A stretch of DNA of 32,255 nt from contig JAGTQB010000003.1 of assembly GCA_018396995.1 (NCBI GenBank), positions 1 through 32,255 of the forward strand. Direction: 5' to 3'. Position numbers and translations under genes: made by a program. The stretch is from Candidatus Bathyarchaeota archaeon (GTDB lineage: Archaea; Thermoproteota; Bathyarchaeia; Bathyarchaeales; DTEX01). The notes under the pieces are model-generated. The model was not told the DNA's origin, made no database searches, and worked only from the letters and a program-made list of their open reading frames with translations. Below, in pieces: positions 14,642 through 32,255 of the stretch; position 1 is the first letter of the stretch; each line of letters begins with the position of its first letter.

Positions 14642-16090
14642 TCATCTTCTCATCTCCTCCCTAGTTCTAAATTTTGGCTTAAATTTTAGGCAGCTGTAGT
14701 CTCCGGCTGTGCAGGCTAGGCAGAGCTGGTCTCTTGGTAAACCTATCCCCCTACTTAACCCATCTATATTGTTGTAGCCGACGAATGATGCTCCAATATG
14801 TTCGGCCACTCTCCTATTAATCTCCTCGAGGCTGCATGATGTCCCACAAACCCTATAGGCTAGGAGCTCCTCTTGGCTTGGGAAGTCTATCCCCATGTAG
14901 CATGGATAGAGTATTGGCGGGAAAGTTAGTAGTAGGGAGACGCTTTTCGCAGACCTGAGCTTGCTTCCAACTATTATCCTTGAACTAGTTCCCCTGACAA
15001 TACTATCATCGATGAGTATAACCTTCTTTCCCTCAATGACCTCCCTTATGGCGATGATTTTTGAAACTATTGTCTCCCTTTTCTCCGGCTCAATGAAGCT
15101 TCTCCAACCACCCTTACGCCTATACCGGTCCTTTAATAGCCCCTCCTCAAAAGGTATCCCAGTCTCCTCAGAGTACCCTAGAGCGGCGGGTCTGGCAGAG
15201 TCGGGCACCGGGATTACTACGTCACCCTCAATTGGATACTCCTTAGCTAAGATACGCCCAATATTTTTCCTTGCATTATAAACTATAATGCCTTCAATCT
15301 TTGAGCTCGGATGAGCAAAATATGTATACTCGAAGGGGCAGTGCGCATGTCTCTCACATTTAGCAAAATACTCTGTCTTTAAACCATCCCTATTTATTGT
15401 CACTATTTCGCCGGGCTCTATATCTCTTATAAGCCTTGCGCCGAGAACTTCTAGGGCACAGCTCTCTGAAGCAACTATGTATGAGGATGTTTCCTCATGC
15501 CACCCTAAGCATAGCGGTCTGAAGCCTCTCTCATCCCTCACAGCTATAAGCTCGCCATTAGATGTTACCATGACTAGCGAGAATGAACCATTTAAGCATG
15601 GATTCAATTTCTCAAAGGCTTCAACCCAGCTCCCACATCTCTTTATTAGGGCATAGAGGTTTAATCCCAGGAGCTCTGTGTCCGAGGCGCCCTGCGGAGG
15701 GTGTAAGCCGATGCTCTTCAAATTCTCCATAAGAGTCTCTCTATCAAGAGTTCCATTATGGGCGATCCTGAAGCCACTGCTATCAAATATTCCTCCTATA
15801 TCTATTGGCTGCGCATATTCAACTGTGGATTTAGCCGTAGTTGAGTACCGAACGTGGCCTACTCCAAGGCTACCGTTAATCTTTGATATCTCATTATATT
15901 CGGCATCGACTGAGTGGGAGACAATTCCAGGCCTCTTAAATGTTTGGTGGTTGGCGACCGCTATTCCCCAGGACTCTTGCCCTCTATGTTGAAGGGCTTC
16001 TAAACCAGCAATTAACAATGGGGTTACATTATATCCATCTAGCGAGAAAGCCCCTATTACACCACAATTCTCCCTTAAGAGCATAGTCAT
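14642..16090 (-). CDS. purF: Amidophosphoribosyltransferase
   Basis: First committed step of purine synthesis: glutamine plus PRPP gives phosphoribosylamine. The Ntn-hydrolase nucleophile is Cys9 in RENCGVIG, after an 8-residue propeptide that must be removed. Residues 1-240 form the glutaminase domain (LQHRGQES, GHVRYST, HNGTL). The PRPP loop VILIDDSIVRGTSSR is at 357-371. All four cysteines expected for the B. subtilis-type [4Fe-4S] cluster are present (C251, C397, C457, C460), so an oxygen-sensitive Fe-S enzyme is predicted. Length 482 is normal. Last gene of the minus-strand run that begins with DNA ligase. A second in-frame ATG is 6 nt downstream. Confidence 0.96.
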   Translation of the reverse strand: MTMLLRENCGVIGAFSLDGYNVTPLLIAGLEALQHRGQESWGIAVANHQTFKRPGIVSHSVDAEYNEISKINGSLGVGHVRYSTTAKSTVEYAQPIDIGGIFDSSGFRIAHNGTLDRETLMENLKSIGLHPPQGASDTELLGLNLYALIKRCGSWVEAFEKLNPCLNGSFSLVMVTSNGELIAVRDERGFRPLCLGWHEETSSYIVASESCALEVLGARLIRDIEPGEIVTINRDGLKTEYFAKCERHAHCPFEYTYFAHPSSKIEGIIVYNARKNIGRILAKEYPIEGDVVIPVPDSARPAALGYSEETGIPFEEGLLKDRYRRKGGWRSFIEPEKRETIVSKIIAIREVIEGKKVILIDDSIVRGTSSRIIVGSKLRSAKSVSLLLTFPPILYPCYMGIDFPSQEELLAYRVCGTSCSLEEINRRVAEHIGASFVGYNNIDGLSRGIGLPRDQLCLACTAGDYSCLKFKPKFRTREEMRR

Positions 16091-16172
16091 ATTTACTTCG
16101 TGAAGAAAAGTTGTTAGGAAGGCTATTAATCTTTATCGCCGCATCTATGTAAAAAACAGGAAGCTGTGCCCA

Positions 16173-16748
16173 CTAAATCCTTCTATAGTTTGGGTTATCG
16201 ATTAGTGTTGGTCTTCCACCTCTCTCAACTACAATTTTTGCGAAGCCTGTTCTCATTATAGTTTCATAGTCGTGGCCTGCATCTGACGGATATACTGCTA
16301 AGAAGACGAGTTCCGTTTTTCCAGTGTTTACGGCTCTATGGGCGAAGCCTGGTGGAACATAAACTACTGTTCCAGTCTCTATCTCCCCAACATTAAACGC
16401 CCCATTCTTATCTTGCATTAATATGAGCCCCTCACCGCTAACCCCAATATAGACCTCACCCGTCGTAACATTACTATGAAAGTGTCCTTTAGTAAAATGG
16501 TACTCGTCTCCTATCTTCCCAGGATAAATCACTGTGCATCCAACATTCAACTCGCCTCTTAATTCTCGGCTTATTTCATATACAACATAGATTAGTGGGT
16601 TTCTCCCGGAAGATAGAATTTCTTCAACGGCTTTCCTATCAATGAAGTAGTCTCGCATATCGCTTAGGTATCTTTCAATCTTACTTTCATATGGATAGAT
16701 TCCCCCTGAACCAAGTATCTTTGTGGTATAGGAGCCCCTATCCAGCAT
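16173..16748 (-). CDS. pgiA: Cupin-type glucose-6-phosphate isomerase
   Basis: Interconverts glucose-6-phosphate and fructose-6-phosphate in archaeal sugar metabolism. The metal site of the cupin family is complete: HFTKGHFH gives His 89 and 91, Glu98 lies in TTGEVYIG and His137 in PPGFAHRAVNTG (numbered from the ATG at 16748). These are almost the same positions as in the Pyrococcus enzyme. Length 191 fits. The frame opens at a TTG (16766), but the ATG at 16748 with GGAAGGA 6 nt upstream is better. It sits between pyrE and purF on the same strand. Confidence 0.93.
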   Translation of the reverse strand: MLDRGSYTTKILGSGGIYPYESKIERYLSDMRDYFIDRKAVEEILSSGRNPLIYVVYEISRELRGELNVGCTVIYPGKIGDEYHFTKGHFHSNVTTGEVYIGVSGEGLILMQDKNGAFNVGEIETGTVVYVPPGFAHRAVNTGKTELVFLAVYPSDAGHDYETIMRTGFAKIVVERGGRPTLIDNPNYRRI

Positions 16749-16798
16749 GCGGCATCCTTCCTTCAATGTGCCTAATATCGTTAACGTTACTTATTTCT

Positions 16799-27854: not shown

Positions 27855-28067
27855 TTACCTGCCTAAAAGTTTGGCTATAATTAGTGTTGCTAAGCTGCTC
27901 AGCGGAACCATTATATTATCATCGGTTAAATTTATTGATAGCGAAAGCGGGTGATCGTTTAATTCTCTTTTAAGTGACTTCAGTGCTGGCCAGATTATGG
28001 CTAACGCTGCCAATGAAAGGATATATGAACCCGTAAGAATTGTAGAAAAGCCCAGTCTAATATGCTG
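27855..28067 (-). CDS. Possible small membrane protein, start unclear
   Basis: The minus strand is open for 70 codons ending in TAA at 27857-27855. The frame encodes a hydrophobic helix (GFSTILTGSYILSLAALAII), a polar middle (KRELNDHPLSLSINLTDDN) and a second hydrophobic end (VPLSSLATLIIAKLLGR). The composition looks protein-like, and the TAA lies just before the ribosome binding site of the HExxH gene, as in an operon. No ATG or GTG lies before the first helix. The only standard start is a TTG at 28013, which would cut it. It overlaps the end of the frameshifted hydrolase gene, so a second indel here is possible. Confidence 0.4.
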   Translation of the reverse strand, partial: QHIRLGFSTILTGSYILSLAALAIIWPALKSLKRELNDHPLSLSINLTDDNIMVPLSSLATLIIAKLLGR

Positions 28068-28720
28068 CTAAGTGCGGCATCATTCTCTTTAAACCACGGT
28101 ATAACATAAAGAAACCAGTAGTAATTAGGAGGAAACCTATATGACATATTATGCTCACTAAAATGTTTATAGCTCCCAAACCAACTAAAACAAGACCCAC
28201 ACTGATTTCAGCTGCCACTATGCTCTTTCTTCTTAGATTTCTGTACAAATGAATTGGGTAAACTAACACTCCGGTGAGAAAGAGTATGAAGTAAACGTAG
28301 AAAAGTATCTGATGGAAATTGGGTTGAAACATGGGATTAAAGTTAAGTGGATAGAAGGGCTTCATTTCGGGATATAATGGCGAGTCAAAGAATATGTGGG
28401 AAGCCCAGCCTACAATACCCAGCTAAGATGAATGATTTAGGCGGATCCTTTTTGTCTACTAGGGATAGGTCCGCCAAGTACGGCGTTACCCGTTCTCTAA
28501 CCAAATATAAGATGAATCCTATTAGGGCGCCTGCAGGTATCGATGCAATAAATGTGTGAAGTAAATCATGTGGAGGATAATTTAGTCTTGCGACAATGGT
28601 TATCAGGGGCTCAAAATCTGTAATAATACTCGACGAGATTAAAGTTGGCCAGTTAAGTCTCCTGCGCAATAAATATCCTATTAAGAGGGATGTTCCAAGG
28701 TGGTAGTTGTTAAGCGGCAT
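28057..28720 (-). pseudogene. Membrane metal-dependent hydrolase family (YdjM/DUF457-like), broken by a frameshift
   Basis: Two frames make one gene. The first (28720-28385) begins MPLNNYHLGTSLLIGYLL and continues with DFEP and YPPHDLLHTF, all family features. It then runs into nonfamily residues and a stop at 28385. In the next frame, from about 28413 onward, the minus strand reads GWASHIFFDSPLYPEMKP, the expected continuation, and stays open to 28057. A one-base indel near 28411-28420 explains both. The joined product is about 220 residues with about 5 helices and conserved His/Asp. GGAGG precedes the ATG at 28720. The break may be a real mutation or a sequencing error. Biochemical function of the family is poorly known. 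Confidence 0.75.
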
Positions 28721-28924
28721 AAAAATTCCTCCAGATTTTCTTCCCTTATGTCCCCTTAATCTTTGCTTCCATTACAATCTTTCGCCCTAAACTTTTAATC
28801 CTTTAAGTTCTTAAATAAGACTCTTAGAAATCCGTAAACCCTGACCATAAGCATTACATCTGCATGCCTCATTATGTTATCTAAAATTTTAAGAAGGTAC
28901 AGAAGTTGTGAACGCTATATTTGG

Positions 28925-29242
28925 TCATTTTGTACAGTGGCTTTTAATTATTATGATCGATGCCGATATTAATATTAGGCTATAGATTAAGAGGATTAGC
29001 AATGGTTTATCTGATAATGAAGATAATGTGTTGATCCATTCGTTCATAACCTTGATGCCCTCATAGGCCGTTATATTCAAATCAGCTACACGCCATATAG
29101 TGTTCCCAATTATATCTCGAGTAAGAGACGCTGTAACGGCCTTAAGCCCAAAAAGATAGGACGATCCTAGAACGCCCAAGATGCCTAGTATTAAGATCAC
29201 AAAGCCAAACACTTGATGTAACCTAGACACCGCAAACACCAT
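28925..29242 (-). CDS. Small two-helix membrane protein
   Basis: A 105-residue hypothetical with an N-terminal helix (VFGFVILILGILGVLGSSYL) and a C-terminal helix (LLILLIYSLILISASIIII). About 45 polar residues between them contain a glycosylation-like NIT and would lie outside the membrane if both ends are inside. No recognisable domain. The ATG at 29242 has only a weak ribosome binding site. The flanking gaps (28721-28924 and 29243-29512) show no further coding signal on either strand. Confidence 0.55.
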   Translation of the reverse strand: MVFAVSRLHQVFGFVILILGILGVLGSSYLFGLKAVTASLTRDIIGNTIWRVADLNITAYEGIKVMNEWINTLSSLSDKPLLILLIYSLILISASIIIIKSHCTK

Positions 29243-29512
29243 AAGGTAGTCTATCTTTTCAGATAATAATTTTTTGTCTTAATGAAGGCTACTTAATCGG
29301 CATTTATTGTTGCAGCAGAGAAGTATAAGAAAGATTTTGGAAGGGGGTCTGGCTAAAATCAGATGGCTCCTTAAGGCATAGATTATATTAGGTTATTATT
29401 CTAAAATGTATCTTAGAGAGCTAGCCTTGTAAGCGACAAGATATAGATAGGGGCGGCCTTAATAGCCCAAACAATGCTGGTTGAAGCCTGGCTTTTCTGG
29501 AGCTTGCCTTTA

Positions 29513-30676
29513 TCATGGAGTTGCCGTTGTTTTTAATGGTATTATGAAAATGGTTGACGCAACTACTATTGCGCCGCCGACTAGGAACGGTAGGTTAATG
29601 TCTATGCCAGCCAGAAACCCGCCTACAACTGGACCGATTATCATGCCAATAGACCCGAAAAGAGACGTCATATTAACGTCCTTTGCTCTCTGATCATCCC
29701 TTGAGTAAACCTGTAGTAGGGTTTGTTGGGCGGGCGTAGAAATAGAGGCGCCGATTATGTCATGTAAATACCAGATCACCGCAGCTGGGATCAAGCTTGG
29801 GGTTAAAGCGGCTAAAATGTGAGGTAACCCGGTAAGTATGTTGCCGACCATAAACAATTTCTTATAGTTGATGTTCTCTCTCGCATAGAGCTTGCTTGCC
29901 ATAAGTATGGGCACGCCAAAGGTGAAGTTGTGCACGGCTAAAATAATGGAAAGCGCCTGGGGGTCTAACATGAACTTCTTTGCAAAGAAGAGTATGAAAA
30001 TGAAAAATGTATGGCATATTGCGAAGCCAAACTGGCTTAACAGGTTGAAAATGCATAGAATTTTCAGATGCTTGTTTATGTCAAACTTATATGCTTCCCA
30101 CAAGCTTTTTCTGTTAACCTTTGGTCTGACAGGCTCCCGCGTGAGTTGAAAAAGCAATAGAGCCCCTAACAACATTAAGCCTAAAGAGATGAAAGATCCT
30201 TGAAAACCCAAGTGGAGCAGCAAAAAGCTGGCTGCCATGAATCCAATGCCGCTGAGGGTTAATTCTAAACCTTGAATTCTTGCAATAATCTTGGCATAGC
30301 CAGATTTAACATGTTCGTAGATCAACGTTGAATGTATGGTCATTCTTGTATGAACCCCAATGTTGTCTGCAATTCTAGTTGCAGTTAATTCCCAAACGCC
30401 TCTTAAAAATGAGGTGAAGAACGCGGATATCGAGTTTAAAATTAAGGCTGCCGAGTAAACAATTTTTCTTCGCCACACGTCACATTGCACACCAATGAAA
30501 ATCATCACAAAAAAGGCGACAAGCCCGGAAACTGAAAACATAACCCCCATTATTGGAAGAGAAATTTGAAGATAATCAATATATAAAGTGAAGAGCATCC
30601 CAGACATTCCGCTACATAAACCGATAACAGCTGAAACCAACGCTATAACCGTGATATCCCTGTTAAGTTTATTCAT
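29513..30676 (-). CDS. Major facilitator superfamily transporter
   Basis: A 387-residue protein with 12 hydrophobic helices in two halves and a central polar loop (TREPVRPKVNRKSLWEAYKFDINKH). The helix 2-3 loop, GVQCDVWRRKIV, is the MFS motif A (GxxxDrxgrr-like). The second half has the pattern DIIGASISTPAQQTLLQVYSRDDQR, seen in drug or metabolite exporters, and GPVVGGFLAG in a late helix. Substrate unknown. The ATG at 30676 has GAGAAG upstream. Intact, in contrast to its disrupted neighbours. Drug-efflux family membership is a guess. Confidence 0.88.
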   Translation of the reverse strand: MNKLNRDITVIALVSAVIGLCSGMSGMLFTLYIDYLQISLPIMGVMFSVSGLVAFFVMIFIGVQCDVWRRKIVYSAALILNSISAFFTSFLRGVWELTATRIADNIGVHTRMTIHSTLIYEHVKSGYAKIIARIQGLELTLSGIGFMAASFLLLHLGFQGSFISLGLMLLGALLLFQLTREPVRPKVNRKSLWEAYKFDINKHLKILCIFNLLSQFGFAICHTFFIFILFFAKKFMLDPQALSIILAVHNFTFGVPILMASKLYARENINYKKLFMVGNILTGLPHILAALTPSLIPAAVIWYLHDIIGASISTPAQQTLLQVYSRDDQRAKDVNMTSLFGSIGMIIGPVVGGFLAGIDINLPFLVGGAIVVASTIFIIPLKTTATP

Positions 30677-30899
30677 GGTTTCTTCTCAATAGGAAAGCAA
30701 GGATGTAAATATGCTTTTTCGTACATTGCCTTTTAAGAATCGATAAGAAGGAGAGTATTAGGACATGTAATAGTAGTGTTCTGGACTTATTTGCAATAGG
30801 CTTTTGATTATTACCCAAATTTTATGTTTCAGGAGGAGCATCGTCTCTCATGAAAATAGCTTTTAAGTAATGATTAGTCTCTTTTTTAGGGATGGCGTT

Positions 30900-31178
30900 A
30901 TGAATCTCTTATCCATAATTTTGGCAGTTATTGTGGCGGGGGCATTATTGGTGTAGTTGTTCGTATATAATATTTACAATAGGTTTAGGACGTTGAGGAA
31001 TGCCGCCGAGGCGACGCTTGCACAGATGAGGGTTGCCTTAAGGAAGAGACTTGATATGATGGCACAGCTCGTCAAAGAGAACTACCTACTACTTCATAAG
31101 GGAGGGGAAACCGTATTCTTAAACCCGCATAAAAACATAGATATTCTAGAATACATTAAAAAAGTTTTAAAAGTTTAA
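30900..31178 (+). pseudogene. LemA-like protein with in-frame TAG in the membrane helix
   Basis: The frame starting at ATG 30900 encodes a hydrophobic helix (LLSIILAVIVAGALLV), then TAG at 30954-30956, and then continues [18 protein letters not shown] in the same frame. The second part (to about residue 55) matches the start of LemA: YNRxxxLRN, [20 protein letters not shown]. After that the sequence leaves the LemA pattern and ends at 73 residues past the TAG, far short of the usual 180. TTG at 30957 could restart translation but would lose half the anchor. A Trp-to-stop change (TGG to TAG) is the simplest explanation. Read-through or pyrrolysine insertion is possible but has no supporting gene in the window. 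Confidence 0.55.
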
Positions 31179-31274
31179 TTGAATAGGATAAGGATAAACC
31201 TGGTTGTGATATTTTTCAGAGTCACTTTGGTTATATTGCTGACGGGGCATGTTAGGCATAGATTGCTACATTAA

Positions 31275-31783
31275 AAGGAGAGATGGAGGCTATTAGTACC
31301 TTTGTTTTTGGAAGCCAAGAATGGAGAATGTGCATGTAAAGCATTTGTTTGCAATTCTGCAAATTGCGGAAAAGCTTTTTCAAGTGGAGAGCTTTGGAAA
31401 GCATTCAGATGTGTTTATGACAACTCGTGGGAATGGGTAGAAGCTCATCCCAACAATCAAGTACCAACAAACTTTTGCTGCTCTGATGATGATTGCACCG
31501 CATATAATGTGACACCAATATTTACAGGATTTACAGGTGTAAACAATCATGTACTAGTGATGATGACTGTCAACCTGGTTATTACTGTTATTGTGGGGTT
31601 TGCAGTTCTACTTTTACTTCAGCTGGCTGTGAAGTTGGTAAATGCTGCAATAGAGGTTATGGTGGGACTGGTAGAGGAAGTTGCGTGAATGCTGGGACAA
31701 TTTATTCAAATTATCTTTGCGACCCACCAGAATGGAAAAGCAGCGAGCCCAATCAAAAAACCAAGCAACAATACTATCTTTGA
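31275..31783 (+). pseudogene. Cysteine-rich protein, frameshifted and without a clear start
   Basis: Two frames each encode cysteine-rich sequence. Frame 1 (31275 to about 31506) contains GECACKAFVCNSANCGK, then FRCVYDNSWEW and FCCSDDDCTAY. Frame 2 (31508-31783) continues CDTNIYRIYRCKQSC, TSDDDCQPGYYCYCGVCSS, GCEVGKCC and LCDPPEW, ending at TGA 31783. The joined product has about 20 Cys in about 155 residues. A one-base loss near 31500-31508 explains the change of frame. Read in frame 1 alone, the distal part looks like a membrane helix, but this is an out-of-frame artefact. No ATG with a signal peptide precedes frame 1, so the 5' end is missing or broken. Repeated SDxDCxxGYYC modules are typical of secreted DPANN archaeal proteins. 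Confidence 0.55.
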
Positions 31784-31804
31784 TTTAATTTTCAATTTCT
31801 TCTC

Positions 31805-32255
31805 TCATTTCTTCCAGAGATAAATCTTCCTGGCAAATTCAGGAAGAATATGGTGCGGCCTTATAACTTGGTAAATTTCCGCATGCGCCAAGTAAGGCTC
31901 TACATTGGGATGTTGAGCCCCCTCTTCCAAATCTTTTTCCAAACCATCAACACAACTGAATAAACAGAAAATGTTGCCATATCCAATTACAACATTCCCA
32001 TATTCACCACTCTTTAAAACATTCACTATATTGTCAGGAAGCGATGTTGCACCTTCCCAACCACATGCTGTTTTTCCTTTATCTCCTATGTAATGAGCCA
32101 ACTCAAAAGCAGGATAAGTGTAAGGTACTCCAAAAGCTTTAAACAAGAGTGGGAAAGCATACCTTTCACCTTCAAATTCAGGCTCAGGAAATTCTCCAAA
32201 CTCATGCAAATACCTTCCATAAGCATATATAACTCTAATCAAATCCCATTTGTCC
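31805..32255 (-). CDS. Unrecognised protein, 5' truncated by the window edge
   Basis: The minus frame is open from the right edge to a stop at 31805, giving at least 149 residues, with DKWD before the TTG at 32242. So the gene almost certainly begins outside the window. Aromatic- and glycine-rich soluble sequence with several His and Cys: FELAHYIGDKGK, CGWEGATSLPDN, YGNVVIGYGN, CLFSCVDG, HAEIYQVIRPHHILPEF. No motif I can assign. Codon choice (frequent AAA, GAA, TTT) looks more A/T-biased than the housekeeping genes to the left. Convergent with the cysteine-rich locus. Possibly of foreign origin; function unknown. Confidence 0.6.
   Translation of the reverse strand, partial: DKWDLIRVIYAYGRYLHEFGEFPEPEFEGERYAFPLLFKAFGVPYTYPAFELAHYIGDKGKTACGWEGATSLPDNIVNVLKSGEYGNVVIGYGNIFCLFSCVDGLEKDLEEGAQHPNVEPYLAHAEIYQVIRPHHILPEFARKIYLWKK

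Follow-up and report, generated by a model that had tools for sequence, protein, structure and literature searches.

Broken genes in a Candidatus Bathyarchaeota scaffold: the remains of a mobile element very probably integrated at the 3' end of the RNase P RNA gene

Near the right end of the DNA studied here lie broken genes that reflect real gene decay, mostly that of an eroded mobile element, to which the decay of two host genes is added. The window, which is the whole stretch of 32,255 bp that was analyzed, forms the opening part (C23:1-32255) of the 133,838-bp scaffold C23 of a Candidatus Bathyarchaeota genome (G000; 42 contigs, 98.5% complete). Its terminal segment, positions 31,066 to 32,255, is very probably the outer part of a decayed integrated element whose attachment site was the 3' end of the archaeal RNase P RNA gene, rnpB. 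What the window shows is unremarkable as a fossil; what stands out is the attachment site and the fact that it is used repeatedly. A preliminary description had listed two frameshifts, an in-frame stop and a start-less small open reading frame (ORF) near the right end, all of which are present in the sequence, and had rightly considered a decaying accessory region. It had also described the left 28 kb as free of broken genes, which agrees with the ORF list, the level at which this was compared. The features of the damaged region and its flank are as follows.

27855-28720, minus strand: decayed gene for a DUF4184-like multi-spanning membrane protein, in three pieces (28385-28720, 28057-28365 and 27855-28013), 71% identical in nucleotides to the copy on G004 C31
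29513-30676, minus strand: intact MFS transporter gene flanking the damaged region (PF07690, E 8.4e-28)
30900-31065, plus strand: N-terminal fragment of a lemA-like gene with an in-frame TAG at 30954-30956, cut off at 31,065 (alignment to the LemA of G011)
31066, no strand: left breakpoint of the element remnant, where the lemA fragment is joined to element DNA; homology to G009 C6 and G004 C12 starts exactly here, and to the left of it both relatives carry the first half of the 91-aa gene in place of lemA
31066-31178, plus strand: C-terminal half (residues 51-91) of a conserved 91-aa element protein, intact in G009
31302-31823, plus strand: gene for a Cys-rich, probably secreted protein with a frameshift near 31,506 (frame comparison with G009 and G004)
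31805-32255, minus strand: C-terminal part of a 335-aa element gene, 91% identical in amino acids to G009, which runs across the 199-N gap (32256-32454) into the rest of C23

The right edge of the window is that 199-N scaffold gap, and C23 runs on for about 101 kb beyond it. The gap has exactly the length of the sequence that G009 carries at the corresponding place (199 bp), an agreement that speaks for the scaffold join. Beyond the gap, 1.1 kb past the window end, lies rnpB (C23:33398-33694, minus strand), its 3' end directed towards the window. The gene is complete, matching positions 1-288 of RF00373 with 231.5 bits. Between rnpB and the 335-aa gene we found the remnant of a tyrosine integrase gene (C23:32904-33346), 66% identical to the G009 enzyme in the better-matching stretch, where it contains five stops.

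The relative G009 carries the element in a more complete form, as 18.1 kb of DNA bounded on both sides by a 20-bp repeat of the rnpB 3' end; repeats in shuffled sequence did not exceed 14 bp. Its integrase gene is intact, begins 61 bp after rnpB and encodes a protein with PF00589 and PF02899 domains. The element also encodes a second tyrosine recombinase with a zinc ribbon, two Cdc6-like ATPases, a ParE-like protein and large unknown proteins, and it looks plasmid-like. An archaeal provirus was considered but is not supported: a comparison of eight G009 element proteins with PHROGs gave no capsid match and no clear virion gene, with one weak helix-turn-helix match to a terminase small subunit (E 5e-4), and searches of viral contigs with the integrase, the 335-aa gene fragment and the att sequence returned no match. 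The same element, with a different deletion, is present in G004.

About 2.3 kb of collinear remnant is retained beyond rnpB in G000. Counted from the rnpB side, its positions 1-482, 594-670, 735-943 and 1143-2332 correspond to positions 1-495, 15098-15177, 15166-15374 and 15574-16766 in G009. Since these four collinear blocks skip about 14.6 kb of the G009 sequence, that much has been lost inside the element. No far att copy was found in the window or elsewhere in the G000 genome; there is one copy only, and the far end is deleted. Because G000 itself does not have direct repeats at both ends, its element is a decayed remnant and not a complete element, and it presumably no longer functions. 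With the far att copy gone, integration at rnpB is deduced from the relatives; what is seen directly are homology, collinearity, the direct repeats in relatives and the lesions. The tyrosine integrase gene adjoining rnpB is decayed in G000 and intact in G009, G033 and G045, and repeats of the rnpB end flank the elements on both sides in the intact relatives G009, G025 and G044.

Homologues of the 91-aa protein occur in 10 of the 41 genomes searched; its N-terminal half was not found in G000. In many relatives this protein is paired with a divergent winged-helix protein of about 120 aa, often at contig ends (L013 7545-8235; L029, L030, L032 and L033), and the pair lies near a tRNA gene in L029, L030 and L032. 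It is likely that the pair marks other integrated elements. The Cys-rich gene has indels in its G009 and G004 copies as well.

To the left of 31,066, the window carries the start of a lemA-like gene. Its frame opens at the ATG at 30900 (MNLLSIILA...), reaches the TAG at 30954 and continues with 20 further residues (letters not shown). Aligned to the LemA of G011, the fragment scored 94 as opposed to a shuffle maximum of 72 (0/500), and the start codons of the two align. As this alignment includes the start, the TAG is most likely a genuine nonsense codon. Pyrrolysine was considered as an alternative reading of this codon, which falls in the membrane segment of an already truncated gene. The fragment shares the N-terminal membrane segment and the YN...R.D..LV motif with the LemA family (PF04011), from which it differs in keeping only about 55 residues and in the TAG inside them. 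Pfam, which does not score so short a fragment, gives no match for its 58 aa, hence the label lemA-like. No LemA was found elsewhere in G000 or in its genus, and the C-terminal half of the gene is also absent from G000.

The join at 31,066 could in principle be an assembly chimera, in which a host contig ending inside lemA was misjoined to element DNA. The join is abrupt and rests on one draft, the genomes compared being mostly multi-contig drafts and probably metagenome assemblies. In several relatives the contig breaks off at the 3' flank of rnpB, which marks the site as difficult for assembly; and the bases just right of 31,066 can also be read as LemA (QLV), a short common word that might mislead an assembler. 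However, the element and rnpB go together in G000, G004 and G009. A chimera should moreover leave the missing halves of lemA and of the 91-aa gene elsewhere, but both are absent from the 98.5% complete G000, and the decay reaches well beyond the join. We therefore regard a chimera as improbable and a decayed element as the better account of the window's right end.

The element DNA and the chromosome give different pictures of the relationship between G000 and G009. Identity to G009 is 92% over positions 31,066-32,255 and 98% over the next block, as opposed to 67% for the chromosome on the other side of rnpB; rnpB itself is 89% identical. This contrast points to a horizontal and probably recent spread of the element. 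The composition of the segment differs as well. In the tetranucleotide comparison that the preliminary description had proposed, 31,066-32,255 was the strongest outlier in the first 48 kb of the scaffold, with a distance of 0.452 (mean 0.288, SD 0.035). Foreign DNA had been suspected from about 31.2 kb onwards, possibly from a DPANN partner. The foreign character is borne out, from an exact breakpoint at 31,066 rightwards; the proposed source is not. Joining of a partner's DNA to the host scaffold would fit the shift in composition and the Cys-rich protein, a style that can hint at DPANN, yet the same DNA stands beside rnpB in several relatives of one genus, the nearest named relative of the integrase comes from a Bathyarchaeota metagenome-assembled genome, and the 335-aa gene fragment has no match among named genomes. 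With the closest matches in genomes of the same genus, we rejected a DPANN origin, whose chance we put as very slight. The source of the foreign DNA is a mobile element that circulates among close relatives and was inserted at rnpB.

Independently of the element, the host has also lost the membrane-protein gene at 27.9-28.7 kb. The ORFs at 28385-28720 and 28057-28365 (minus strand) belong to one gene, and the start-less ORF at 27855-28013 (minus strand) is its C-terminal piece. Relative to the G004 homologue, the G000 gene has one base inserted near 28,420 and lacks 77 bp near 28,066; the G004 copy has a 2-bp frameshift of its own at another place. Because the lesions in the two copies do not coincide, they reflect decay rather than errors of base calling. 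The assignment to DUF4184 (PF13803) is below the cut-off, with E 0.04 and 14.1 bits against a required 25 for the N-terminal piece only. As a side observation, the G004 homologue of the MFS gene at 29513-30676 (L060, G004 C30:70371-71522; 63%) contains one in-frame TAA. Sequencing or assembly errors in place of true decay, put down earlier to poor base accuracy near a contig end, can be dismissed as highly improbable: several lesions are indeed single-base, but C23 continues past the gap, and the 77-bp and 14.6-kb deletions, the five integrase stops and the independent, different lesions in relatives all speak against them.

The following course of events would account for the decayed element. 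A tyrosine integrase would have recombined the att site of the element with the last 20 bp or so of rnpB and adjoining bases, leaving rnpB whole and placing the integrase gene directly behind it. In the G000 lineage the element would afterwards have lost about 14.6 kb internally, the far att copy and its far end, in an order of deletions that we infer. The far-end deletion would also have taken the C-terminal part of the neighbouring lemA-like gene and so created the fusion at 31,066. What was left (the start of the integrase, the 335-aa gene, the Cys-rich gene and half of the 91-aa gene) would since have been accumulating frameshifts and stops.

Integrases were found at rnpB in further genomes of the order. 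The integrase family of G009 is present, intact and 77-78% identical, directly behind rnpB in G033 and in G045, which belong to another family, and survives as remnants behind rnpB in G005 and G008. A relative of this integrase in L122 (51%) had no rnpB within the flank examined. Downstream of rnpB in G033 C10 (L115, L118-L120) the rnpB 3' end recurs in three att-like copies, at distances of about 44.2, 46.7 and 54.0 kb, suggesting stacked, tandem insertions. Another integrase, which shows no similarity to the first by BLAST, lies behind rnpB in G025, G044 and G059. Direct repeats of the rnpB end accompany it in G025 (25 bp, 4.9 kb apart) and in G044 (27/28 bp, 5.0 kb apart). Two unrelated integrase types occupy rnpB within the order, with three intact cases each. 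The outer flanks of the G009 and G025 elements were not found beside rnpB in other genomes, nor did any relative lacking the element show the same outer flank.

Some further observations were made at these loci. The 4.9-kb element of G025 C1 (L084, between rnpB and the second att copy) encodes an AbiLi-like ATPase (PADLOC, E 3e-36) and carries an extra gene for a TATA-binding protein; there are four such genes in G025 and five in its congener G044. In G059 (L128), rnpB, the adjoining integrase gene and a 23S rRNA gene share one short locus. In six genomes (G001, G004, G005, G006, G008 and G014), no more than about 770 bp separate the rnpB 3' flank from a contig end, as expected if strains differ in the elements inserted there.

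It is chiefly at tRNA genes that integrases of archaea are known. For their tyrosine recombinases, a review gives tRNA genes, intergenic regions and protein genes as targets (PMC8371274), and a survey of 68 thaumarchaeal integrations counted 39 in tRNA genes, 15 in intergenic regions and 14 in protein genes (PMC6563490); RNase P is unmentioned in the main text of either. The elements described here resemble the integrated elements at archaeal tRNA genes (PMC6563490; PMC8371274) in their tyrosine integrase, in the short direct repeats that copy the 3' end of a structural RNA gene and in that this gene stays whole, but their target is the RNase P RNA gene. We found no earlier report of rnpB as an archaeal attachment site in the open-licence literature and one bacterial precedent, a putative phage-inducible chromosomal island in rnpB of Clostridium novyi sensu lato (PMC8473940). 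That island is likewise an integrative element at the RNase P RNA gene. However, it is bacterial, has the gene content of a phage satellite and is described as splitting rnpB, whereas the archaeal elements use the 3' end and leave rnpB intact.

In this order, rnpB is probably a hotspot of regular integration that at least two unrelated families of tyrosine integrases have come to use independently, and where elements arrive, spread between species, stack in tandem and decay. If this is true, mobile-element DNA repeatedly takes the place of the 3' end of an essential ribozyme gene.
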